38,297 bases of DNA, taken from Caldisericota bacterium (GTDB lineage Bacteria; Caldisericota; Caldisericia; Cryosericales; Cryosericaceae). A program made the translations under genes and the position numbers. A model generated the notes under the pieces. It saw nothing but the letters and a program-made list of their open reading frames with translations. It was not told the origin of the DNA and ran no database searches. Location: positions 1-38,297 of the forward strand of contig JAPLGK010000027.1 of NCBI GenBank assembly GCA_026390195.1, read 5' to 3'. Of the stretch, positions 7,463 through 22,682 are shown one piece after another (position 1 is the stretch's first letter; each line of letters starts with the position of its first letter).

Positions 7463-10400
7463 CTAGGGGTACACGTCGCCATAATGCTGGCGCAGGATCT
7501 GCAGGTCGGCGTCGTCGACGCGTCCATCGCCGTTGAGGTCTGCCATGTTGTCATATCGCCTGTCCCCGGCCTGTGAGCCGTACGCACGGGCAAGAGCGAC
7601 CATGTCACGGAGGTCCACGCGCTTGTTGCCGTCGATATCCCAGACGTTGCCTCCCGACCGCAACGTGATGGCCAGCGACCGGGCGATCGTTTCCGCCGTC
7701 CCGCTGCCGTTGGTCGCACGAGGCTTTCCAATCCACAATTCCGTGGAGCCGCTGTGCAGGACAGTGAATGTGATCATACACACACTGCCGCGCCCCTGGA
7801 CCTGACCCGTTCCTGTCGCTCCTTCGACCGCGGCGCTACCCGCTGAAGCGTCGACCGCGGAAACAAGACTTGACGGAACTTTTCCCCTCTGGTTCAGGAA
7901 GTCGCCCTCCAGCACTGACTTCACCGAGAGATAGTAGGGTTCGAACTGCACGACAGCCGCTATGTCTGAGATACTCGTCGTGCTGTCGGCGGTAAGGCTG
8001 ACCGTCACGTCCTCGCCCTGGCGCAGACTCCCGCCCACGATGTTCAGGCTGAGCTCCGGAACTCCTGCCATGCCCGTGACACGAATAGGCGTCGACTGAT
8101 GCGCTGCCTCGGAGATCTGCAGGTTGACCGGGTCGTTGTTGCTCTCGACGACCGACGTTCTCAGGAGATAGTCTCCGTCGGTCAGGAAGAGGTTGCCGTG
8201 AACATCCCGACCGTCCCAGGCAAACCCATGGTCACCCACGAGCAACAGCGATCTGCGGTACACGGTCCCGAGGGTCGTCGCGCCATCTGTGCCCGTGACC
8301 GTTGCCACGACCTGCGAGGCAAAGCTGGAACCCTGGGGCTCGTCTCCTTCCTCGACGGCAGGTCGCACCCCACCGTAGCCGATGTTGAACCGGACGTCCA
8401 TCGTGCCACCGGGCGCCATCAGGGTTGCTGTGCTCGTATGCATTCCGCTCAACTGTTCAGGGACCTCAACGCTCGCGCGCCAGAAGATGTAGGGCACGTG
8501 CAAGGTTCCGCTGGCCGACTGCAGGGTGATCATCCCCTCGTGCGGCCCGTCCCCCACGGTGGCCGGGTTCACAGTCGTGGTCACGGCAACTTGTGCCGTT
8601 CCGCCGGGAGCGACGACGACGGACAACGAAGCAACGGTCACCTCCACGCCTGCCCGCGCGTCCATCGTCCAGTTGAACGAAGGCGCAAAGGTCACACTGT
8701 GGTTCGAGAGACTGCGTACTGTGATCGTCGTCGCAGTCGCAATACTGTCATCGTCGACAAGAAGGGCGCCTGTCTGAAACGTCGTCTTCCCATCAGACGT
8801 GGCTATCCCAGCCACGGCCGGGGCGTCGATGGCAGCCGGTACGTCGACCCGGCCGGCTCCCTGCAGCGTCCACGTGATGACCTCGTCGTTCTGCCAGTTG
8901 CGAAGGACATCCGACGTGTTCATCAGCGCCAGCTTGACCGTCTCCGGTGTCCAGTCGGGATGAGCCGCCTTAATCAGCGCAACGGCTCCGGCCACCCCCG
9001 GCGAAGCCATCGACGTGCCGTCCAGCTTGGCATACTCGTCATTTGGAAATGTCGAGTTCACCGTGACGCCGGGCGCAGACACCTCCGGCTTGAAGTGAAA
9101 GTCCTCCGTGGGTCCCATCGAGCTGAAGTCTGCAAGCGTCCCCAGGTTGCTGCGTGTTCCAAACCGAACGACAAGCCCCCTCGTCGTCAGCATCCTTAGA
9201 TCCAGTCCTGCATCCTGCGTGATGCCGATGCAGGGGACATAGTCCTTACTCTCGTCGCCCGCCGCTACCCTGAGCGTCATTCCAATGACTCCGGGGCTGT
9301 GATTGTAGATGATGACGCCGGCGGCTCCTGCAGCCTCCGCGTTGAGGACCTTGTCGCGGAAGTAGATCCCGCCGGTCCCGATGGGTCCCCGCTCGACTAG
9401 TGCAACCTTCCCCTTGACGTTCACGCCAGCAAAATCAGCCTTCGAGCCGTATCCGGCATCCACGATGCTGTACGTAGAGCCTTCCTTGAACTCAGGGGCG
9501 ATGTCGGCATAGCCGCCCAAGATGTGATCCATCCCTGTTCCGCTCGGTGTCAGAACCTCCATTACTGGATAGGGGCCGTCGTTGGAGGCAGCTACCGCGA
9601 TGGCATTGAGGGCTGTCGCGGGCGAACCCAGGGGCCAGTTGGTCTCGGGGTTGCGTGGGCCGGAGTTGCCCGTCGCTGCCACGACCACGACACCCGCCTT
9701 GACCGCGTTGTTGATAGCCTCGTTCTCGGGCGTATCAGCGGTTCCCCCGGACATGCCCAGGGACATGTTGACCACCGTACAATGGTCCCGCAGGGAGCGG
9801 TCAAGCGCAGCGATGATGTCCCCGTCGGCAGCTCCCCCTCCCTGGTCGCTGAAGACCTTGTAGGCATAGAGCTTGGCCTTTGGCGCGACACCCTGCACCT
9901 TGCCGTCCGCAGCTGCAATGCCCGCGACGTGGGTGCCGTGGCCCTGGTTGTCCATAGGGTTGCCGTCGTCGTCAGCGAAGTCGTATCCTCCCACCACCTT
10001 GGCATTGGGGAACCTGGCTCCACCAAGATCGGGATGCATATAGTCGATACCGGTGTCGATGATGCCGATGGCCGTACCGGTTCCGTCGAGTTTCTTTCCG
10101 CCCGCCGATGTACGGTCCCACAACGCTTGATTCACTCCCATGGCGGCATTTCCGTCATCGTCCAGGATCTGTGCCCGCCGGGATTCGTAGACAAACGAGA
10201 CGTGGCTCGTCCCCGCAACCGCTGCGAGGTCGCAACCCGCAAGGCTCAATGCGAGACCGTTGAAGGTCACACTCAGCCGCTGCGTGACCGCATACGCAAC
10301 ACCGTGCGCCGTCAGCGACGACAGAAACGCGTCCTGCTCCTGCGAGATCGCTGCCTCTGATGCGTGCGCGGCCACGGTGTCCAGCCACCCTTCCGTTCCC

Positions 10401-10609
10401 GCATCCTGGACTCTGCCGACCAACGGAAGACCCTGCATGCGGACGATGACCTCCTGTAACGATGGCGATGACCCGACACGGGCCAGAAAGGCGGCGTCGA
10501 TCGTAGGCAGGTTCATCGAGCCGCGCGCGGGCTTCCCTGGCAGTGCGCACCCCAGTACCAGAGCCACCACTACCACGATTCTCAGACACCATTGCAGTTG
10601 CCTCGTCAT
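7463..10609 (-). CDS. Secreted subtilisin-like S8 peptidase with PA domain, cohesin-like module and C-terminal dockerin-type repeat
   Basis: S8 motifs GIIDTGIDYMHPDL (Asp), GHGTHVAGI (His), GTSMASPGVAGA (Ser). C-term DIDGNKRVDLRDMVALARAYGS...DLNGDGRVDDADLQILRQHYGDVYP is a dockerin-type Ca-binding duplicate. ATG at 10609 with SD GGAGG. Confidence 0.92.
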   Translation of the reverse strand: MTRQLQWCLRIVVVVALVLGCALPGKPARGSMNLPTIDAAFLARVGSSPSLQEVIVRMQGLPLVGRVQDAGTEGWLDTVAAHASEAAISQEQDAFLSSLTAHGVAYAVTQRLSVTFNGLALSLAGCDLAAVAGTSHVSFVYESRRAQILDDDGNAAMGVNQALWDRTSAGGKKLDGTGTAIGIIDTGIDYMHPDLGGARFPNAKVVGGYDFADDDGNPMDNQGHGTHVAGIAAADGKVQGVAPKAKLYAYKVFSDQGGGAADGDIIAALDRSLRDHCTVVNMSLGMSGGTADTPENEAINNAVKAGVVVVAATGNSGPRNPETNWPLGSPATALNAIAVAASNDGPYPVMEVLTPSGTGMDHILGGYADIAPEFKEGSTYSIVDAGYGSKADFAGVNVKGKVALVERGPIGTGGIYFRDKVLNAEAAGAAGVIIYNHSPGVIGMTLRVAAGDESKDYVPCIGITQDAGLDLRMLTTRGLVVRFGTRSNLGTLADFSSMGPTEDFHFKPEVSAPGVTVNSTFPNDEYAKLDGTSMASPGVAGAVALIKAAHPDWTPETVKLALMNTSDVLRNWQNDEVITWTLQGAGRVDVPAAIDAPAVAGIATSDGKTTFQTGALLVDDDSIATATTITVRSLSNHSVTFAPSFNWTMDARAGVEVTVASLSVVVAPGGTAQVAVTTTVNPATVGDGPHEGMITLQSASGTLHVPYIFWRASVEVPEQLSGMHTSTATLMAPGGTMDVRFNIGYGGVRPAVEEGDEPQGSSFASQVVATVTGTDGATTLGTVYRRSLLLVGDHGFAWDGRDVHGNLFLTDGDYLLRTSVVESNNDPVNLQISEAAHQSTPIRVTGMAGVPELSLNIVGGSLRQGEDVTVSLTADSTTSISDIAAVVQFEPYYLSVKSVLEGDFLNQRGKVPSSLVSAVDASAGSAAVEGATGTGQVQGRGSVCMITFTVLHSGSTELWIGKPRATNGSGTAETIARSLAITLRSGGNVWDIDGNKRVDLRDMVALARAYGSQAGDRRYDNMADLNGDGRVDDADLQILRQHYGDVYP

Positions 10610-10850
10610 CGTTTTCCTCCTGCGCCGCTGGCGGGTCGCATGCTCAACCCACACGGAGGCAGATGTGTTGGGTATACCGCCAAACCGCTCCAAGGTCAAT
10701 GAAGATGGAACTCACGAGCCAGGAAACAGCTGGATTCCCGCCTGCGCCGAGGAACACCACTCAGAAGCACCCCTCGTATTAGACTAACATGCTCGGGGGC
10801 ATTGTACCAACATGCAGAACACCCTCGGATACAAAAACATCCTTGGGCTC

Positions 10851-11019: not shown

Positions 11020-11138
11020 TCCTCTGCAGCGCAGAGAACAATTCTTCGAGCTGTCCGACCTTCGGTGCAAGCCATGGCGTACAGCCGGCAGGGTACGGCG
11101 GGAAACGGCCGTGCCTCCCATTGTGGAAAGGAGAAACA
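11020..11138 (+). ncRNA. Putative Moco/Tuco (molybdenum/tungsten cofactor) riboswitch
   Basis: Leader contains GTCCGACC...GCCGGCAGGGTACGGCGGGAAACGGCCGTGCCTCCCATTGTGGAAAGGAG, resembling the conserved Moco RNA core as I recall it; GGTACG pairs with CGTGCC; 5' hairpin CTCTGC-AGC-GCAGAG. SD (AAGGAG) lies in the conserved 3' strand. Located directly upstream of a tungstate/Moco operon. Confidence 0.75.
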
Positions 11139-12950
11139 ATGAATCAAGGTCTGCCACGTCTGCTGGTCCGCCGCGTCCTTGCGGTCGCACTCATTCTCGC
11201 ATTCCTGTCCATGGCGTCCGTCCACCCGGCGCGCGCCGCATCACTGTCTGACATCATTGGGCGTCCCGATCAGGCAGTCATCGAACTGGTCGTCGCCAAA
11301 GGGTTCATGAAGGGTTACCCGGACGGGACGTTGCGACCCGACGCTCCAGTCACCCGTGCCGAGTTCGTCGTGGCGCTTGCGCGCTCCGCCGGGCTGGATC
11401 TCGTGCAGTCACCCGCCAACACGCTTCTGGACCTGCCGACGAGCAACTGGGCCTCTCCTCTGGTCTACGCCGCCCTGACCAAGGGCTGGGTCTCCGGGTA
11501 CCCGGACGGGACCTTCCACCCCACAGCCGGCATCACCCGTGAAGAGTCGATGGTCATTGTCGCACGCCTCATGGGCTTCGAGATCCGCGGCATGGCGACC
11601 CACATAGTCCTGGACAAGGTCCCAGGCTCGGAGGACCTTTCGGAGTGGGCCCGGACAGCTGCTGCTGCCTGTGTACAGGAAGGCATGGTCGCCGATGTGA
11701 CGAGGCCGACCGCGGCCATCACCCGTGCCCAGGCTGCTGCCTACTTCCCCCCCATCCTCGACTACAAGGAGCCCGAAACACAGTCGATGGTCCTCGCCAC
11801 GACGACCTCCACCTTCGACTCCGGGCTCCTGACCTTCCTTGTCCCTCTGTTCGAGAAGTCCAACCACGTCAAGGTCAAGATCATCTCGGTCGGTACCGGT
11901 CAGGCGATCACGACCGGGCGCAAGGGCGACGCAGACGTCCTGCTCGTGCACGCGCGTGCCCAGGAAGACCTGTTCATGGCCGACGGCTTCGGCCTCTTCC
12001 GCAAGGATGTCATGTACAACGATTTCATCATTGTTGGTCCAGCTTCGGACCTAGCGAAGATTAAGGGCATGACCGATGCGACCGCGGCGTTCACGAAGCT
12101 CGCCGGCTCGGGCTCGACCTTCATCAGCCGTGGTGACAAGTCGGGCACCAACACCAAGGAACTCGACATCTGGAAGGCAGCGGGCATCACGCCTGCCGGC
12201 AAGTCCTGGTACCTCAGCGCCGGACAGGGCATGGGCGAAGTCCTCATGATGACCGACCAGAAGCAGGCATACACCCTGACCGACCGCGCCACGTACCTTG
12301 CGTATCAGAATGGTGGCAAGATCAACCTGCCGATCCTCGTCCAGGGGTCTCAGGGGCTGCTCAATCCCTACGGCCTCATGCCCGTGAACCCCGCCAAATA
12401 CCCACAGGTCAAGGTGGACCTCGCCGTTCGATTCGCCGATTTCATGACCGGCCTTCCCGGTCAGGAACTCATCAAGAGCTTCGGCGTGGAGCAATACGGG
12501 CAGACCCTCTTCTATCCGGATTCCACCGAGTGGAGGGCTACGCGCAGCCTCGACATCGTTCTTCCCAGCGGCAAGGCGGTCACCTACCGTCTGAACGACG
12601 TCCGCAAGTTCCCCGTTACGACGGTCAAGATCTACCCACAGAACAACCAGTCACTCACGCCGGTTCTTTACGGCGGTGTCCAGCTCATCGACATCCTGAA
12701 GGCCATCTCTCCCGATCTTGCAGCCGCCAAGCGCCTGATGGTCGTCGCCACAGCCACAGACGGCAGCCGTATGACATTGGACTATGACGACATCTACAAC
12801 GCGCGCACCGGCACGAAGATCACGGTCGTCTACCTCAAGAACGGTGTGACACTCTCGACCGACGATGGCTTCATGGCTCTCATGACCACCAGGGGCGTGT
12901 TCCTGGTGAACAGTCTCAAGTACGTCTACCGGCTCGAAATCCACAAATAG
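11139..12950 (+). CDS. SLH-domain-anchored tungstate-binding protein (TupA-like) with C-terminal oxidoreductase molybdopterin-binding-like domain
   Basis: SLH repeats (VVAKGFMKGYPDGTLRPDAPVTRAEFVVALAR; ALTKGWVSGYPDGTFHPTAGITREESMVIVARLMG); TupA motif TTTSTFDSGLLTFLVPLFE...VGTGQAITTGRKGDADVLLVHA...YNDFIIVGP...SRGDKSGTNTKE...GQGMGEVL; C-term LDIVLPSGKAVTYRLNDVRKFP...YGGVQLIDILKA...GVFLVNSLKYVYRLEI. Confidence 0.85.
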   Translation: MNQGLPRLLVRRVLAVALILAFLSMASVHPARAASLSDIIGRPDQAVIELVVAKGFMKGYPDGTLRPDAPVTRAEFVVALARSAGLDLVQSPANTLLDLPTSNWASPLVYAALTKGWVSGYPDGTFHPTAGITREESMVIVARLMGFEIRGMATHIVLDKVPGSEDLSEWARTAAAACVQEGMVADVTRPTAAITRAQAAAYFPPILDYKEPETQSMVLATTTSTFDSGLLTFLVPLFEKSNHVKVKIISVGTGQAITTGRKGDADVLLVHARAQEDLFMADGFGLFRKDVMYNDFIIVGPASDLAKIKGMTDATAAFTKLAGSGSTFISRGDKSGTNTKELDIWKAAGITPAGKSWYLSAGQGMGEVLMMTDQKQAYTLTDRATYLAYQNGGKINLPILVQGSQGLLNPYGLMPVNPAKYPQVKVDLAVRFADFMTGLPGQELIKSFGVEQYGQTLFYPDSTEWRATRSLDIVLPSGKAVTYRLNDVRKFPVTTVKIYPQNNQSLTPVLYGGVQLIDILKAISPDLAAAKRLMVVATATDGSRMTLDYDDIYNARTGTKITVVYLKNGVTLSTDDGFMALMTTRGVFLVNSLKYVYRLEIHK

Positions 12951-12976: not shown

Positions 12977-13696
12977 ATGGGTGATATCGGCCGGGGCTTT
13001 GCGCAGGCCGTGCGGCTCATCCTTTCCTTGGACCCCGGCACGTACGAGGCTCTGGGGACATCTCTCCGCGTCACGATGAGCGCGCTGTTCTGGTCGGCGC
13101 TCGCAGGGTTCCCTCTCGGCATCCTGCTGGCGTTCGCTCGCTTCCGGGGCAAGCAGGGCGTCATGAACGTCGTCTATACCCTGATGGGGTTCCCGCCGGT
13201 GGTGGCCGGCCTCCTGGTGTATCTCCTGTTCTCGCGCAGCGGCCCCCTCGGTCCGCTGGAACTGCTTTACACCCCGACAGCGATGGTGGTCGCTCAGATC
13301 GCGCTGGCTCTCCCGGTTATCGTGGGCCTCTCGGTCCTTGGACTGCGCAGCGCCGACAAGGGCGTCTTCGACCTTGCGCTTACGCTGGGGGCAACACACA
13401 CGCAGGCCTCCGTCGCTTTGCTCCTCGAGGCACGCCTGGCCATCCTAGGCGCCGTCGTCACGGCGTTTGGCAACGCCATCAGCGAGGTCGGGGCAGCCAT
13501 GCTGGTGGGTGGCAACATCCAGGGGGCGACCCGTACGCTTACCACGGCCCTCGTCCTTGAGACCCGTCAGGGCAACTTCGACCGTGCCGTCGCGCTGGGC
13601 ATCATCCTGCTCCTCGTCTCCTTCCTCGTCAACATCGTCCTATCTCGCCTGGGCGAGGGCACGTCGGAGGCCGGCAATGTCCGCCACCTCGACTGA
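12977..13696 (+). CDS. tupB: Tungstate/molybdate ABC transporter permease (TupB-like)
   Basis: 239-aa multi-TM ABC permease with SEVGAAMLVGGNIQGATRTLTTALVLETRQGNFDRAVALGIIL, typical of TupB, adjacent to TupA. Confidence 0.85.
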   Translation: MGDIGRGFAQAVRLILSLDPGTYEALGTSLRVTMSALFWSALAGFPLGILLAFARFRGKQGVMNVVYTLMGFPPVVAGLLVYLLFSRSGPLGPLELLYTPTAMVVAQIALALPVIVGLSVLGLRSADKGVFDLALTLGATHTQASVALLLEARLAILGAVVTAFGNAISEVGAAMLVGGNIQGATRTLTTALVLETRQGNFDRAVALGIILLLVSFLVNIVLSRLGEGTSEAGNVRHLD

Positions 13697-14462
13697 CCTC
13701 ATCACAGCGGCAGGCGTTCGCAAGCGCTTTGGCGCCCGGAAGGTCCTGCAGGACATCGACCTCAGCGTTGCCGCAGGCAGCATCACCGTCATCCTCGGCA
13801 CGAACGGCGCCGGCAAGACGACCCTCCTGCGCATCCTTGGGTTGCTGGAACCCGCCGACGAAGGCACCGTCGCGTATGATGGCATTGCCCCTGGTGTGTC
13901 GACCGTCACCTATGGAGCCTCGACCAGGAGTCCGACTCAGGACCAGCACTACCTACCCCTGCGACGCCAGATGCTGCTCGCGTTTCAACACCCCGCGGTC
14001 TTCAGCAGCTCGGTCCTCAGCAATGTAATGTATGGGTTGCAGTTACGCGGTATGAGTCGAGCCGAGGCAGAGGAGCGGTCCATGGCCGCCCTGCGCGAGG
14101 TAGGCATCGCAGAGAGAGCGCGCCAGCATGCATCGTCGCTTTCCGGCGGCGAAGCGGCACGCCTGTCGGTGGCGCGCGCCCTCGCCCTGCAGCCGCGCCT
14201 GCTCTTCCTCGACGAGCCCTCCGCCAGCCTGGACCCCTACGGCACCAAGCTGCTCGAAGACCTGCTGCTCCACATGAGGGACGACCTGGGCATAACCGCC
14301 GTCATCGTGACACAGGACATCTTTGAAGCCCGTCGTGTCGCCGACGACGTGGCGTTCCTGCACGAGGGGCGTATCATTGAACAGGCACCGCGCGAGGCTT
14401 TCTTTGCGAGTCCTCGCGACGACCGGACCCGCCGCTTTGTGGCAGGTGAGCTGCTTGTGTAA
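13677..14462 (+). CDS. ABC transporter ATP-binding protein (tungstate/molybdate importer ATPase)
   Basis: Walker A GTNGAGKTT, signature SSLSGGEAARLSVARAL, Walker B LLFLDEPSASLDP. ATG at 13677 overlaps the permease end. Confidence 0.9.
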   Translation: MSATSTDLITAAGVRKRFGARKVLQDIDLSVAAGSITVILGTNGAGKTTLLRILGLLEPADEGTVAYDGIAPGVSTVTYGASTRSPTQDQHYLPLRRQMLLAFQHPAVFSSSVLSNVMYGLQLRGMSRAEAEERSMAALREVGIAERARQHASSLSGGEAARLSVARALALQPRLLFLDEPSASLDPYGTKLLEDLLLHMRDDLGITAVIVTQDIFEARRVADDVAFLHEGRIIEQAPREAFFASPRDDRTRRFVAGELLV

Positions 14463-14507: not shown

Positions 14508-15737
14508 ATGCTGAACATCGAGGAAGCGCTGAAGGCGATACTGGAGCACGCAACACCGTTGGCGCCTGTCACCATGCCGCTCGATGAGGCTGCGGGACTG
14601 GTACTTGCGGAGGACGTGATGGCACATGGGAATGTACCCCCCTTCGCCAACTCCGCTATGGACGGGTTCGCGGTCCTCGCCGCCGACATATGGCAGGCAT
14701 CCGAGGCCACACCTGTCCGCCTGCACATCCTGGAAGACGTCCCTGCGGGCAGCGTCGCGACGCAGCCGGTTCGCCCTTGAACCGCCATCCGCATCATGAC
14801 GGGCGCGCCCCTCCCCGCCGACGCCGACACTATCGTCCACGTCGAGGCGACCCGCACAGAGGGTGACGACGTCCTTATTCTGCTGGCGCTCAAGACAGGC
14901 ACCAACGTTCGCAGTGCAGGCGAAGACATGAAGGACGGCGCCATCGTCCTCGCGGCCGGAACAGTCCTCCGCCCGGGCGAGGTCGGCGTCTGCGCTGCAG
15001 CGGGTCATGCCACCGTCACCGTTTGCCCCCGTGCGCGCGTTGCCGTCCTGACCACCGGCAGCGAGCTGGTCGACGTCGCCCTGGTGCCTGGACCGGGACA
15101 GATCCGTGACGCCAACGCGCACTCGCTGCGCGCACAGGTCGCCGCGATGGGCGCAGAACCGGTGGTCTTCGCTCGCGTGGCCGATACGCGTGTGGCCGTG
15201 AGGTCTGCGCTCGAACAGGCTCTTGCCCAGTCTGATGTCGTCCTCACCAACGGCGGCATCTCGGTCGGCGACTACGATTTCGTGAAGGACGTCTTGCAGG
15301 AGATGGGCGCAGAGCTGGTCTTCTGGCATGTGAAGCAGAAGCCAGGCAAGCCCATGGCCTTCTGGACGCTGGGCTCCAGGCGCATCGTCGGGCTACCTGG
15401 CAATCCCGTATCTTGCATGGTCTGTGTCGAGGAGTACGTACGACCCCTGGTACGTCACATGATGGGCCACGCCCTGCTGTATCGCCCTGTCCGCACCGCC
15501 GTTTTCGACGAACGGTACACCAAGGGCGCCGACGCGGGACGCACGCACTTCGCGCGGGTCCGCCTGCAGGAGCGTGACGGAGCCCTCCATGCTACCTTGA
15601 CCGGTCCCCAGGGGTCCGGCATCCTCACGTCTATGGCGCTCGCTGCCGGCATCGCCGTCATCCCTGAAAATACGCCTGTCGTCGAGGCAGGCCAGACCAT
15701 TCACATACAGCTCACCGACTTGCCGGAGGACCACTGA
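14508..15737 (+). pseudogene. moeA: MoeA molybdopterin molybdenumtransferase reading frame interrupted by one in-frame TGA (14778..14780)
   Basis: ORFs 14508..14780 and 14796..15737 share a frame and join as ...EDVPAGSVATQPVRP-[TGA]-TAIRIMTGAPLPADADTIV..., a contiguous MoeA. The stop sits at the Gly of the PGTAIRIMTGAP motif. Confidence 0.88.
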
Positions 15738-16703: not shown

Positions 16704-17186
16704 ATGGGAAGCAATGAACTGACGCATCTGGACGACAAGGGCAACGCGCGCATGGTGGACGTCGGCGGAAAGCCGGAGACAGCCCGAGAGGCCGTCGCCC
16801 GCTGCCGTGTCCTGCTGGCCCCCGCTACCTTCGATCTGGTCAAAGCGGGCAACCTCAAGAAAGGCGACGTCCTGACCGTCGCGCAGGTCGCCGGCATTCA
16901 GGCTGCCAAACGCACCTGGGAACTGGTCCCCCTCTGTCACCAGATCAACATGACGTTTGTCGGTGTGACGTTGACACTGAATGAGACCGATCACGCCCTC
17001 GACATCGAAGCGACCGCTCGCACCAAGGCCGAGACCGGCGTCGAGATGGAAGCCCTGGTCGCTGCCTCCACCGCTGCGCTCACCGTCTACGACATGTGCA
17101 AGGCTGTCGAACGGGGCATTCGCATCACCGACCTGCGCCTCGTCCGCAAGAGCGGTGGCCAGACCGGTCTCTGGGAGAGCGCATGA
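16704..17186 (+). CDS. moaC: Cyclic pyranopterin monophosphate synthase MoaC
   Basis: LTHLDDKGNARMVDVGGKPETAREAVA...KKGDVLTVAQVAGIQAAKRTWELVPLCHQI...GVEMEALVAASTAALTVYDMCKA. Confidence 0.97.
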   Translation: MGSNELTHLDDKGNARMVDVGGKPETAREAVARCRVLLAPATFDLVKAGNLKKGDVLTVAQVAGIQAAKRTWELVPLCHQINMTFVGVTLTLNETDHALDIEATARTKAETGVEMEALVAASTAALTVYDMCKAVERGIRITDLRLVRKSGGQTGLWESA

Positions 17187-17638
17187 ACCATTCCGTCGTC
17201 ATCTCGGTCAACATCTCGGAGCAGAAAGGCACACGCAAACATCCCGTGCAAGGCCCTGTCACCATCACCATGCTGGGCATGCAGGGCGATGCCCACGCAG
17301 GCGACTGGCACCGTCAACTCAGCCTGCTTGCGCAGGAGAGCATCGACAAGATGCAGGGCCACGGCCTGGTATTGCAGCCCGGCGACTTCGCCGAGAATAT
17401 CACGACGCAGGGCCTGGACCTGCTGACCCTGCCTGTCGGGACACGTCTCCAGATCGGCACCGCCGTCACGATGGAGGCCACCCAGATCGGCAAGGAATGC
17501 CACCTGGGCTGTGAGATCCGCAAGCTGGTCGGCGACTGCGTCATGCCCCGCGAGGGCATCTTCGCCCGCGTCATCACGCCCGGCACGATTCATGCCGGCG
17601 ACATCATCACCATTATCAGCAAAGGAGGAACCCTATGA
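17183..17638 (+). CDS. MOSC domain-containing protein
   Basis: Starts MNHSVVISVNISEQKGTRKHPV; GDAHAGDWHRQLSLLAQESI; PGDFAENITTQGLDL; IGKECHLGCEI. ATGA overlap with moaC. Confidence 0.9.
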   Translation: MNHSVVISVNISEQKGTRKHPVQGPVTITMLGMQGDAHAGDWHRQLSLLAQESIDKMQGHGLVLQPGDFAENITTQGLDLLTLPVGTRLQIGTAVTMEATQIGKECHLGCEIRKLVGDCVMPREGIFARVITPGTIHAGDIITIISKGGTL

Positions 17639-18111
17639 AAGCAGCAGTTCTGACCGTCAGTGACAGTTGCGCCGCCGGGAACCGCGTCGACGAGAGCGGC
17701 CCCGCAATCGTAAAGCGTCTCACGGATGCCGGCTGGACCATCGAGGAAACGACGATCGTTCCCGACGAGCAGGCCGAAATTGCCGGAATCCTTGAGCAGT
17801 GGTCCATGGAACGCCGCGTGAACGCCATCATCACCACGGGCGGCACTGGCTTCTCCACCCGCGACGTCACCCCCGAGGCGACCCTGTCCGTCATTGACCG
17901 CCGCGCGCCCGGCATCAGTGAAGCCATCCGTCTCTACGGCCTGAACAAGGGCGTCCCGACTGCCTGTCTGTCCCGCGCCGAAGCCGGCCTCCGAGGCGCG
18001 ACGCTCATCATCAACCTCCCCGGCAGCCTCAAGGCCGTGCAGGATGGCATGGACGTCCTCATCCCACTGCTCCCACATGCCCTGGAGATGATCGCGGGAA
18101 AGGGACACTAG
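17635..18111 (+). CDS. mog: Molybdopterin adenylyltransferase (MogA/MoaB family)
   Basis: VLTVSDSCAAGNRVDESGP, ITTGGTGFSTRDVTPEAT, INLPGSLKAVQDGMDVLIPLLPHALEMI. Confidence 0.93.
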   Translation: MKAAVLTVSDSCAAGNRVDESGPAIVKRLTDAGWTIEETTIVPDEQAEIAGILEQWSMERRVNAIITTGGTGFSTRDVTPEATLSVIDRRAPGISEAIRLYGLNKGVPTACLSRAEAGLRGATLIINLPGSLKAVQDGMDVLIPLLPHALEMIAGKGH

Positions 18112-18239: not shown

Positions 18240-21233
18240 ATGGAGAACCTGCCGGACGAACTGGTCCATCTGATCGACCGCTTCAAGGAACACCTGGAGC
18301 AGTACAAGGGTGTCTCGTATGATGAGGCCAACACACGTACCGACTTCATCGACCCCTTGTTTGAGCTGCTGGGCTGGGACGTCGCCAACCGAAACAGCTA
18401 TGCCGAGCAGTACCGCGAGGTCATCCGAGAGGACAAAGTCAGCATCGAGGGTGGCACCAAAGCACCTGATTACTGCTTCCGCATCGGTGGTGTCCGCAAG
18501 TTCTTTGTGGAAGCCAAGAAGCCGTCGGTCGATCTGCGCAACGACCCCAGCCCCGCCTATCAGTTGCGCCGCTACGCCTACTCGGCCAAACTGCCGCTGT
18601 CGATCTTGACTGACTTCCAGGAATTCGCCGTCTATGACACGCGCATCAAGCCCGGCCCCAATGACAGCGCCTCTGTGGCTCGTATCCAGTACTTCACCTT
18701 CGAGGACTATCCTGGGAAATGGGCGTTCCTGACCGGTACCTTCTCCCGCGAGGCCATCCTGCACGGTGCCTTCGACAAGTATGTGGAGGACACGCGCAAC
18801 AAGCATGGTACCAGCGAAGTCGACAAGGAGTTCCTGAACCTCATCGACCAGTGGCGCGAGAAGCTGGCGCGCAATATCGCGCTGCGCAACCGCGAACTGC
18901 CGCTGCATCAGCTCAACTTTGCCGTCCAGAAGACGATTGACCGCATCGTGTTCCTGCGCATCGCCGAGGACCGTGGCATCGATACCTATGGCAACATGCA
19001 CGCACTGCTCAACGGCACGAACCAGTACACGCGCCTACGGCAGCTCTTCACCCAGGCCGACGCACGGTACAACGGTGGACTCTTCAACTTCGCCGAGGAC
19101 ACACTAACGCCCGGCCTGACGGTCGACGACAACATCATCAAGGACATTGTCCGCAGCGTCTACTATCCACAGAGCCCCTACGAGTTCTCAGTGCTGGACG
19201 TCGCCATCCTGGGCAACATCTATGAGCAGTTCCTGGGCAAGACCATTCGCCTCACCACGGAGCACCGCGTCAAGGTGGAGGAGAAGCCCGAAGTCAAGAA
19301 AGCCGGCGGCGTCTACTACACCCCCAGGGACATCGTAGAGTACATCGTGGACCATACCGTCGGGGAGGCACTCAAGGAGACGACGCCTGCCAAGATCGAA
19401 CAGCTGCATATCCTCGATCCTGCCTGTGGTTCTGGCAGTTTCCTGCTGGGAGCATATGACAAGCTGCTCAGCTGGCACCTGGACTGGTACGCTCAGGACA
19501 CGCACCGCGCCAAAGCGCTCAAGGACCACCGCATCATCGAGCCACACACAGGCGACTATCGCCTGACGATCGACGAGAAGCGTCGCATCCTGACCAACAA
19601 CATCTACGGCGTGGACATCGACGACCAGGCGGTCGAGATCGCCAAGTTGTCGCTGACCCTGCGGCTGCTGGAGGGCGAGACCTCCGAGACCGCCGAACTG
19701 TTCACGAGGGGTGGCCGCCAGCGCCTCCTCCCCAAGCTGGAGGACAACATCAAGTGCGGCAACTCCCTCATCGGTCCCGACTTCTACAGTGACGCCGACG
19801 AGAGCCTCTTCATCAACGACGAGACCCGCTACCGCATCAATGCCTTTGACTGGAAGGCCACCTCCGGCTTCAAGCAGGTCTTCGACACCCATGGCGGCTT
19901 CAACGTTGTGCTGGGCAACCCGCCGTACGTGAGGCAAGAAGGGCTTGGTCCTCTTGTCAAAGCTTACCTGAAACAGCACTATTCAGCATTCCACGGCGTC
20001 GCCGATCTCTACGTCTACTTTATCGAGCGTGGGATGAGACTCCTCAAGCCAGGGGGTATGCTTGGAATCATCGTGGCAAACAAGTGGCTGCGCTCCAACT
20101 ATGGAGAGCCTTTGAGACATTGGCTGAAGCAATACGATGTACAGGAGATCACCGATTTCGGCGACCTGCCGGTGTTTCAGGGCATCACTACCTACCCGTG
20201 TATCCTGAGGGTCAGGAGTCAGGAACACACGGCAACGTTTACTGCCACCCATGTCGCATCACTCTCCTATTTGAGTCTCGGCGACTACGTCCGGGAGCAT
20301 GTCGTTACCTTGCCGCAGTCCGCACTGCGGGATGACCAGTGGTCGATGAGTTCGGAGCGTATTCAGGAGGTTTTGAGCAAGATTGAACATGCTGCTCTGC
20401 CACTGGGTAGCGTGCCTGGACTCAGAATCCTTCGGGGAATCCTCACTGGCTTGAATGAAGCGTTTGTCATCGACAACGAGGTCAGAGCCAGACTGGTTGC
20501 GGAAGATCCTCATTCTACTGAACTCATCAAGCCATTTGTGGCCGGTCGTGACATCAAGCGGTATGAGCCGCTGCAACAACAGCGCTTCCTCATCACGATT
20601 CCACGCGGTTGGACGCGGTCCAAGACAGGCAACGCCAAGGACAGGTGGTCCTGGCTCGAAGCCGCCTATCCTGCAATTGCTGCACATCTGAAACCCTTTG
20701 CGGCCAAGGCCGAAAAGCGAGGCGACAAGGGGGAATACTGGTGGGAACTGCGTGCATGCAGTTACTATGATGCATTTGAGAAACCGAAGATCATGCTGCC
20801 CGACATTTCCGCCGAGTGCAATTTCACGCTTGATACAACTGGTGGTATCTATGGCGCAAACACCGCCTACATCATCGAGAGCGATGACCGTTACCTGTTG
20901 GGCATTTTGAATTCGTCTCTGATGACCTTCGTCATACGACAGCACTCCATGTCATACCGAGGCGGATACGTACGGTTCTTTACTCAGTTTGTCGAGAAGC
21001 TGCCAATACGCGCCATCGACTTCACCAACTCTACTGACAAGGCGATGCACGACGAGATGGTTCGCCTCGTCGACCAAATGCTGACGCTTCACCGTCAACT
21101 CGCCACCGCTGGCACTGACCGTGAGAAGTCCGGCCTTCAGCTCCAGATCGCCGCTCTCGATCGCGCCATCGACTCCCTCGTCTTCCGCCTTTATGGGCTG
21201 ACAATTAGCGAGGCTTCCTCGAATTTCGTATAG
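18240..21233 (+). CDS. Type IIG restriction-modification enzyme (fused nuclease, N6-adenine methyltransferase and specificity region)
   Basis: PD-(D/E)XK-like KAPDYCFRIGGVRKFFVEAKKP (18459..18521); SAM motif DPACGSGSF (19416..19442); catalytic NPPY (19917..19928); C-terminal specificity-like region (AGRDIKRYEPLQQQRFLITIP..., MSYRGGYVRFFTQFVEKLPI). Confidence 0.92.
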   Translation: MENLPDELVHLIDRFKEHLEQYKGVSYDEANTRTDFIDPLFELLGWDVANRNSYAEQYREVIREDKVSIEGGTKAPDYCFRIGGVRKFFVEAKKPSVDLRNDPSPAYQLRRYAYSAKLPLSILTDFQEFAVYDTRIKPGPNDSASVARIQYFTFEDYPGKWAFLTGTFSREAILHGAFDKYVEDTRNKHGTSEVDKEFLNLIDQWREKLARNIALRNRELPLHQLNFAVQKTIDRIVFLRIAEDRGIDTYGNMHALLNGTNQYTRLRQLFTQADARYNGGLFNFAEDTLTPGLTVDDNIIKDIVRSVYYPQSPYEFSVLDVAILGNIYEQFLGKTIRLTTEHRVKVEEKPEVKKAGGVYYTPRDIVEYIVDHTVGEALKETTPAKIEQLHILDPACGSGSFLLGAYDKLLSWHLDWYAQDTHRAKALKDHRIIEPHTGDYRLTIDEKRRILTNNIYGVDIDDQAVEIAKLSLTLRLLEGETSETAELFTRGGRQRLLPKLEDNIKCGNSLIGPDFYSDADESLFINDETRYRINAFDWKATSGFKQVFDTHGGFNVVLGNPPYVRQEGLGPLVKAYLKQHYSAFHGVADLYVYFIERGMRLLKPGGMLGIIVANKWLRSNYGEPLRHWLKQYDVQEITDFGDLPVFQGITTYPCILRVRSQEHTATFTATHVASLSYLSLGDYVREHVVTLPQSALRDDQWSMSSERIQEVLSKIEHAALPLGSVPGLRILRGILTGLNEAFVIDNEVRARLVAEDPHSTELIKPFVAGRDIKRYEPLQQQRFLITIPRGWTRSKTGNAKDRWSWLEAAYPAIAAHLKPFAAKAEKRGDKGEYWWELRACSYYDAFEKPKIMLPDISAECNFTLDTTGGIYGANTAYIIESDDRYLLGILNSSLMTFVIRQHSMSYRGGYVRFFTQFVEKLPIRAIDFTNSTDKAMHDEMVRLVDQMLTLHRQLATAGTDREKSGLQLQIAALDRAIDSLVFRLYGLTISEASSNFV

Positions 21234-21242
21234 GGGTCAAAG

Positions 21243-22682
21243 ATGCCAACATCGGAAGACATTACTCAACTACTTGAAGAGAGTCATCTTGGATCTTGGT
21301 GGATTCCAGAAGATCCAGACCGAAAGATTGCTGGAGTACTGTCCTTCGATCCAGACCATCTAGCTCATCTCGAGCTCATGGATAGCTTCGAGACTACCCT
21401 CGATCAGTGTCTCGCTTCTGACAAGAAATACCCTCGCGTCCTTGGTATGGACAAGTCCGGCGAAGAGTACGCTCTGCTCAATTGCTGGAAAACTTCAGCT
21501 CAAACGAACCTCGGCACGGGGCGGTCATCCTCAGGAATTCGGTGTCGACAGGTTCTGATAGGATTGCCTGCCAAGCTGGCGTCGAATCCCTCGTTCAGTC
21601 GCCTCGAACTGCGAAGTCCGAGTCTCCGCAAATGGTGGCGTTCCGGGGCAACACAAGTATCTGTGGCCAACAGCAAGAAACGATGGGCTGTAACACTTAA
21701 AGTACACAGCGCTCCCCCGATTCATCTCTGTAAGTGGAAGGGAATTTCATTGGATTTCAACTCAAACCCGACATTTAGCGCTAACCTGGAGCGAGCTAAA
21801 CCATTTGATGTTGATGAGGACGTTTGCCTGAGAATAACCAGTCCGGAAGAACGCTCTCTCGACGAGCTCCTTCTTGACATTGACACACTTTGTTCATTCT
21901 TAGGAATTCTACTACAGCATCCCATTGTTCTGCCTACGATTACGGCGTTTCTCGATGATCGTGAACTTGAGGCCAAGACTATTTCTCGCATGCGTTCGCC
22001 AATCGTCGTAGTTACACCAATTAGGGGCTGCACGCCAGCTCAACATCTTGACGACTCGAATGATTGCCTGCTTCCAGTGCGATTGTCACTACCATTGCTT
22101 CGCAGGATACTACGTCGATGGTTCCTTCGCCACTCCGAGCTCGAGGCAGCCCGTAGTGTGCTTTTCGGCAGCGAACGAGCACAACACTCCTACTCGGGAA
22201 ATCGCCTTACGATGGCTGTCGCGGCTTTGGAAGGACTCGACCGACTCAGTTGCAGTAACGAAACCTGGGAGTACCGAGATTGGAAGAAACGAGTCAACGA
22301 TGCCATCAACCCCCAAGCATCCGACGAGATTCAGAGATGGGCACGTGGCCACCTCACGTACAGTAATGAGCCGAGCTTGAGAGACAGACTCCGTCGGCAA
22401 TTCGCAGTCTGTTCGACGTTTCTCAGCACAACACCTCGACAACACAAATCCTTCCTACAGACGTGTATCACTGTCAGGAACGATACCGCCCACGCGCGTA
22501 CTCCTGTCTCACGAGACACAGAGAGCGGTATCAGGATCATTGAAGCTACCGACCAAATCGAATCAATCCTCCTGGTGTCGCTACTCAAGTACCTTGGATG
22601 TACCGACAATGACCTCGAAGCCGCTGCTACGAAATACCCTCTCGCCTGGCAGTCGATACGGAGCGTCTTCAGGTCTAAGTGA
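21243..22682 (+). CDS. ApeA-like HEPN-domain defence protein
   Basis: N-terminal GVLSFDPDHLAHLELMDSF resembles ApeA N-terminal domain; C-terminal HEPN motif RNDTAH (22476..22493). Starts 10 nt after the RM gene. Confidence 0.65.
   Translation: MPTSEDITQLLEESHLGSWWIPEDPDRKIAGVLSFDPDHLAHLELMDSFETTLDQCLASDKKYPRVLGMDKSGEEYALLNCWKTSAQTNLGTGRSSSGIRCRQVLIGLPAKLASNPSFSRLELRSPSLRKWWRSGATQVSVANSKKRWAVTLKVHSAPPIHLCKWKGISLDFNSNPTFSANLERAKPFDVDEDVCLRITSPEERSLDELLLDIDTLCSFLGILLQHPIVLPTITAFLDDRELEAKTISRMRSPIVVVTPIRGCTPAQHLDDSNDCLLPVRLSLPLLRRILRRWFLRHSELEAARSVLFGSERAQHSYSGNRLTMAVAALEGLDRLSCSNETWEYRDWKKRVNDAINPQASDEIQRWARGHLTYSNEPSLRDRLRRQFAVCSTFLSTTPRQHKSFLQTCITVRNDTAHARTPVSRDTESGIRIIEATDQIESILLVSLLKYLGCTDNDLEAAATKYPLAWQSIRSVFRSK

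Follow-up and report, generated by a model that had tools for sequence, protein, structure and literature searches.

A Cryosericum protein joins SLH repeats and a predicted TupA-type tungstate receptor to a cysteine-less domain of sulfite oxidase fold

The known tungstate receptors of the TupA family, exemplified by those of D. alaskensis (PDB 5my5) and Geobacter sulfurreducens (3lr1), are single-domain periplasmic proteins encoded together with TupB and TupC. In D. alaskensis TupA the oxyanion pocket consists of a TTTS motif, His59, Arg118, Thr124 and Asp170 (PMC5517513). TupA proteins are characterised by picomolar affinity for tungstate in preference to molybdate, and SLH proteins by attachment to the secondary cell wall polymer or to peptidoglycan. 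The sulfite oxidase (SUOX) fold is that of sulfite oxidase and YedY (MsrP), which fall into Pfam family PF00174. PruR is a periplasmic SUOX-fold protein devoid of the Mo-ligating Cys, which binds reduced pterins through N/D102, Tyr104 and Trp160 (PMC13259868). At the RNA level, Moco-motif riboswitches lacking stem P3 associate with genes of the tungsten cofactor, Tuco (Regulski et al., PMC2408646).

We analysed a stretch of 38,297 nucleotides (hereafter the window) of a Caldisericota genome, contig JAPLGK010000027.1, whose closest named relatives are Candidatus Cryosericum terrychapinii, septentrionale and hinesii (Caldiserica). A preliminary description, made from the sequence of the window, had proposed that one of its genes encodes a fusion of an N-terminal SLH anchor, a TupA protein and a C-terminal domain with a sulfite oxidase-like fold. 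This three-part architecture is real, and all of its parts were confirmed. The SLH segment scored 78.5 bits with Pfam in the full protein, i.e. well above the family threshold of 20.8, and two stretches pass it individually; the middle part is discussed below, as is the C-terminal part, which did not turn out to have an unrelated fold. The features of the gene and its surroundings are collected in Table 1. The mechanical ORF call began at a TTG codon (11121), which is an unlikely start because a GGAG Shine-Dalgarno sequence sits at 11130-11133, 5 bases upstream of the ATG adopted here. The only Cys of the protein, residue 178, lies within the SLH region.

Table 1. Features of the tup/moa locus in the window
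Feature	Coordinates	Strand	Remarks
Moco-motif riboswitch RF01055, P3-less type	11032..11149	+	63.4 bits, gathering 36, E 4e-13
SLH-TupA-SUOX-fold protein	11139..12950	+	603 aa, ATG 11139, stop 12948-12950
Signal peptide (predicted)	11139..11240	+	residues 1-34, without lipobox Cys, from sequence
SLH region	11250..11762	+	residues ~38-208, Pfam PF00395 and S-layer proteins in PDB search
TupA tungstate-binding domain (predicted)	11775..12524	+	residues 213-462
C-terminal Cys-less SUOX-fold domain (predicted)	12543..12950	+	residues ~469-603
tupB, tungstate ABC permease	12977..13696	+	NF041773 E 1.2e-48, below curated cut-off
tupC, ABC ATPase	13677..14462	+	ABC_tran 92 bits; ATG 13677 inside ORF listed from 13467
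moeA, interrupted in this assembly by an in-frame TGA (14778-14780)	14508..15737	+	MoeA_N both sides of stop, MoCF_biosynth, MoeA_C
moaA	15737..16702	+	Radical_SAM and Mob_synth_C
moaC	16704..17186	+	MoaC 186 bits
MOSC-domain protein and MoaB/MogA-type protein	17096..18111	+	

The middle part closely resembles the known TupA proteins. Pfam PBP_like_2 matched residues 212-437 with 150.8 bits, a sequence search of the PDB retrieved the solved TupA structure 3lr1 at E 4.7e-84, and comparison of the predicted full-length model with 5my5 gave a target TM-score of 0.94. In structural alignments with 5my5 and 3lr1 the fold was the same and identity was 43-56%. The pocket equivalents are all kept, namely T221, T222, T223 and S224 of the TTTS motif, H271, R331, T337 and D382. 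The NCBIfam model NF041772 was covered in full with 209.5 bits (E 5.6e-62), which is under its curated cut-off of 400 bits, but this cut-off is narrow, as a Chloroflexota TupA with a whole domain scores 218. Identification as TupA is based on the pocket and on the operon shared with TupB and TupC; the domain is predicted to be specific for tungstate. What distinguishes the Cryosericum protein from the known TupA is the addition of SLH repeats in front and of a SUOX-fold domain behind.

The preliminary description had regarded an SLH-anchored oxyanion binder as unusual. The anchor is indeed present, but fusions of SLH to other ABC receptors look routine in this apparently monoderm lineage, so SLH is not a peculiarity of TupA. 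An SLH-SBP_bac_5 receptor is encoded in the source genome and also in relatives from other families of the class and phylum. Such peptide-type ABC receptors are common in the phylum (e.g. L002:1291-3522, L021:1-2037 and L020:1477-3486). These proteins, and the SLH-TupA of a genome of the sister family (G018), are anchored N-terminally in the same way as the Cryosericum protein, but lack the SUOX-fold tail. Omp85 was found in none of the 31 relatives searched, while control genomes were positive. A location of the TupA fusion at the wall or S-layer is predicted on the condition of a monoderm envelope, which is deduced solely from the absence of Omp85 in MAGs.

The full-length form is intact in nine Cryosericum genomes, i.e. 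the source genome and eight others at 85-91% identity. Its recurrence at full length in these eight genomes rules out an assembly chimera or a MAG artefact. In a further genome of the genus the gene is broken by a frameshift around residues 203-249 (L012, G005:C221:626-2297), and in another one only a fragment is present; the four same-genus genomes without a match are incomplete MAGs (61-87%). Pairwise dN/dS rose from 0.062 in TupA through 0.108 in the SLH part to 0.134 in the C-terminal domain, and all three parts are therefore under purifying selection. As the SLH-TupA of G018 has no third domain, either the SLH fusion predates the fusion with the SUOX-fold domain or the latter was lost in G018.

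The fold of the C-terminal domain was approached in several ways. Oxidored_molyb (PF00174) matched residues 496-602 at 23.0 bits, slightly short of its cut-off of 24, when the full protein was searched; a scan restricted to the last 141 residues scored 27.6 bits. AlphaFold modelled the domain with pLDDT 82.5 and pTM 0.79 from a 29-sequence alignment, which included catalytic SUOX-fold homologues and could favour that fold; a full-length run without these homologues was less confident but arranged strands and helices in the same order. In the Foldseek comparison with the PDB, the best matches, with a probability of 1.0, were chicken sulfite oxidase at 6.3e-6 and PruR (7kom) at 6.7e-6, and YedY ranked lower. 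The single domain had no match in a sequence-only search of the PDB, the alignment of near-identical Cryosericum sequences returned chance matches only, and YedY-like proteins were matched weakly (E 4e-4) when profiles were compared pairwise. Since the sequence searches were weak or empty, the assignment rests on Pfam and on AlphaFold with Foldseek; on this modelled structure the domain is of SUOX fold.

The domain shares the fold and the core motif with sulfite oxidase and YedY, but, unlike them, has neither the Mo-Cys nor the Arg and Lys of the HGxPxR region nor the second (dimerisation) domain. When aligned with YedY-like proteins of the Cys type, which are encoded elsewhere in the same Cryosericum genomes, HCVTGWS corresponds to a Cys-free stretch, HGxPxR to DDGFMAL, and the next Lys is lost. 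The HGxPxR and Lys positions are those that we take to be molybdopterin contacts in YedY. The cofactor-ligating Cys, which the preliminary description had suggested looking for, is absent, and there is no Cys at all in residues 179-603. An active Mo or W enzyme domain was rejected on these grounds. PruR (7kos, 7kom, 7rkb) is likewise a secreted protein of SUOX fold that lacks the Mo-ligating Cys. It differs from the Cryosericum domain in being free-standing rather than fused to an oxyanion receptor, and in its pterin contacts: the Asp equivalent to N/D102 is kept, but every Cryosericum copy has Ser (DGS) at the Tyr104 (or Phe) position of the N/D-x-Y motif, and the counterpart of Trp160 seems to be Leu in the register of a sequence alignment. 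No partner gene of PruR encoding a DcpA/DTB-type regulator lies beside the Cryosericum gene, whose operon is of the tup/moa type. The C-terminal domain thus seems to keep its fold without catalysis and, judged by its residues, without cofactor binding, and the pterin-cofactor binding proposed earlier is not supported.

SUOX-fold domains accompany tungstate and molybdate receptors outside Cryosericum as well. In a genome scan, a Chloroflexota locus (L031) encoded TupA followed by an Oxidored_molyb domain, which reached 27.5 bits when scanned alone with Pfam, and another one (L041) a SUOX domain N-terminal to TupA, weak in Pfam (15.4 bits) and matched at 4.2e-24 by the family model. A search of 150 genomes of the class of L031 (Anaerolineae) yielded six further TupA-SUOX fusions. 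This class search also revealed a TupA-SUOX protein with a c-type cytochrome (CNECH) inserted into the SUOX-fold domain (L167:1253-2956), and a WtpA-SUOX fusion (L156/L208), which in L208:9379-10551 carries its SUOX-fold domain, one of the CxxC type, at the C-terminus. The aligned Chloroflexota C-terminal copies lack the Mo-Cys and have in common a strict CxxC, which is absent in Cryosericum; the two may act differently.

Ten loci of the class search were matched by the C-terminal domain alone, i.e. were found independently of TupA, and in six of them (G115, G129, G186, G091, G207 and G114) the domain is fused to or adjoins wtpA. The identity of WtpA was confirmed by TIGR03730, which was above its cut-off in all four loci tested. 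Strong matches to the family model were obtained in 14 genomes, and in 11 of these the SUOX domain accompanies a Tup or Wtp receptor. On the TupA tree, whose support is SH-aLRT only, the SUOX trait requires at least eight changes, some of which may be losses; G018, which falls together with the Cryosericum clade, has no SUOX domain. We take these data to mean that Cys-less SUOX-fold domains were recruited to TupA and WtpA repeatedly and independently.

A related arrangement was seen in four loci (L211:10791-12248, L210:5696-7315, L201:5521-7173 and L206:5650-7299), where proteins of ~490-550 aa, composed of three SUOX-fold domains in tandem, are encoded immediately upstream of wtpA. Their middle domain has a Cys-His motif (CCH, CHG or CHQ) close to the Mo-Cys position.

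Based on our observations, we consider it fairly likely that the protein is a wall-tethered receptor of the TupABC tungstate system, carrying a non-catalytic docking or regulatory module at its C-terminus. This role of the domain, to which its recurrent partners and its absent residues point, is probable. It has to be set against three other readings. The domain might bind a pterin or a tungsto- or molybdopterin in the manner of PruR, so that the protein would capture tungstate and at the same time sense or salvage the cofactor. That PruR, a Cys-less periplasmic pterin binder, is among the top fold matches (PMC13259868), that its N/D102 has a counterpart and that the operon is a cofactor operon all speak for such a function, but with Ser in place of Tyr104, an apparent Leu in place of Trp160, other residues where catalytic homologues have HGxPxR and Lys, and no Cys, it seems unlikely. 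We give even less credit to an inert spacer, or a chance relic kept only for stability. Although the domain has lost the catalytic residues and evolves slightly faster than TupA, purifying selection on it is still strong, and chance would not yield a fold joined repeatedly and separately to tungstate and molybdate receptors.

The cytochrome inserted in the L167 protein and the strict CxxC of the Chloroflexota domains would fit a surface arrangement for electron transfer or redox sensing that tunes oxyanion uptake; with neither Cys nor haem motif in the Cryosericum domain, this is very improbable here. A broader idea, which we put forward only tentatively and which is rather doubtful, is that Cys-less SUOX-fold domains are a general, as yet unnamed accessory of extracytoplasmic W/Mo uptake, recruited at the least by Cryosericum and, on several occasions, by Chloroflexota. 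On the outside of the cell, such domains would bind or sense a pterin, the cofactor or the redox state and would gate the Tup and Wtp receptors, supplementing the cytoplasmic riboswitch with a further level of control.

The genetic context suggests tungsten metabolism. The SLH-TupA-SUOX gene stands first in the order tupA-tupB-tupC-moeA-moaA-moaC, which is followed by the genes of the MOSC protein and the MoaB/MogA-type protein. In the alignment of the upstream RNA to RF01055, stem P3 is almost wholly deleted, and both this structure and the location upstream of tungsten genes are as described for P3-less Moco/Tuco riboswitches, with no notable difference. An RF01055 RNA precedes tupA in 13 of the 14 related loci tested. 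The 3' strand of stem P1 (GGAGAA) contains the Shine-Dalgarno GGAG, which suggests that the riboswitch acts by translational control. Of 15 Cryosericum genomes, 14 have genes of aldehyde ferredoxin oxidoreductases (AFOR), which are tungstoenzymes; in G018 one such gene adjoins the tup operon with its SLH-tupA.

The system with a docking or regulatory module could then work as follows. The TupA fusion would serve as the substrate receptor of the TupABC importer, its SLH tether to the wall or S-layer replacing a lipid anchor, and would pass captured tungstate to TupB/TupC. The co-encoded MoeA, MoaA and MoaC would build it into the tungsten cofactor for tungstoenzymes, e.g. aldehyde ferredoxin oxidoreductases. 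Once the cofactor is plentiful, the riboswitch would hide the Shine-Dalgarno sequence in stem P1 and the operon would be switched off. Within this uptake system, the most likely role of the C-terminal domain is docking or regulation.

Several other features of the window were recorded. The TGA interrupting moeA occurs in this assembly only, as six of seven aligned same-genus relatives have Gly and one has Ser at this position; it may represent a sequencing error, a strain mutation or read-through. TGA serves as a stop in other genes of the window. Directly after the cofactor operon (18240-22682) lie genes of an Eco57I-type restriction-methylase protein and an ApeA-type HEPN protein (ApeA_NTD1, HEPN_Apea), which look like a defence pair. 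On the minus strand, 7463-10699 encodes a large, secreted protease of the subtilisin type, which by eye ends in what resembles a dockerin-type repeat.

The preliminary description considered the SLH-TupA-SUOX architecture to be undescribed, and we likewise found no account of it in the open-access papers searched. The same search gave no description of a recurrent partnership between Cys-less SUOX domains and W/Mo receptors. TupA, SLH anchoring, the SUOX fold and the P3-less riboswitch are already known, and it is this repeated partnership that was unexpected.

To our knowledge, the control of tungsten uptake outside the membrane has been little studied. SLH tethering appears to be a general means of holding ABC receptors in a lineage apparently without an outer membrane. 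The repeated joining of a non-catalytic domain, which shares the fold of metal-using enzymes, to W/Mo receptors points to an unrecognised component.
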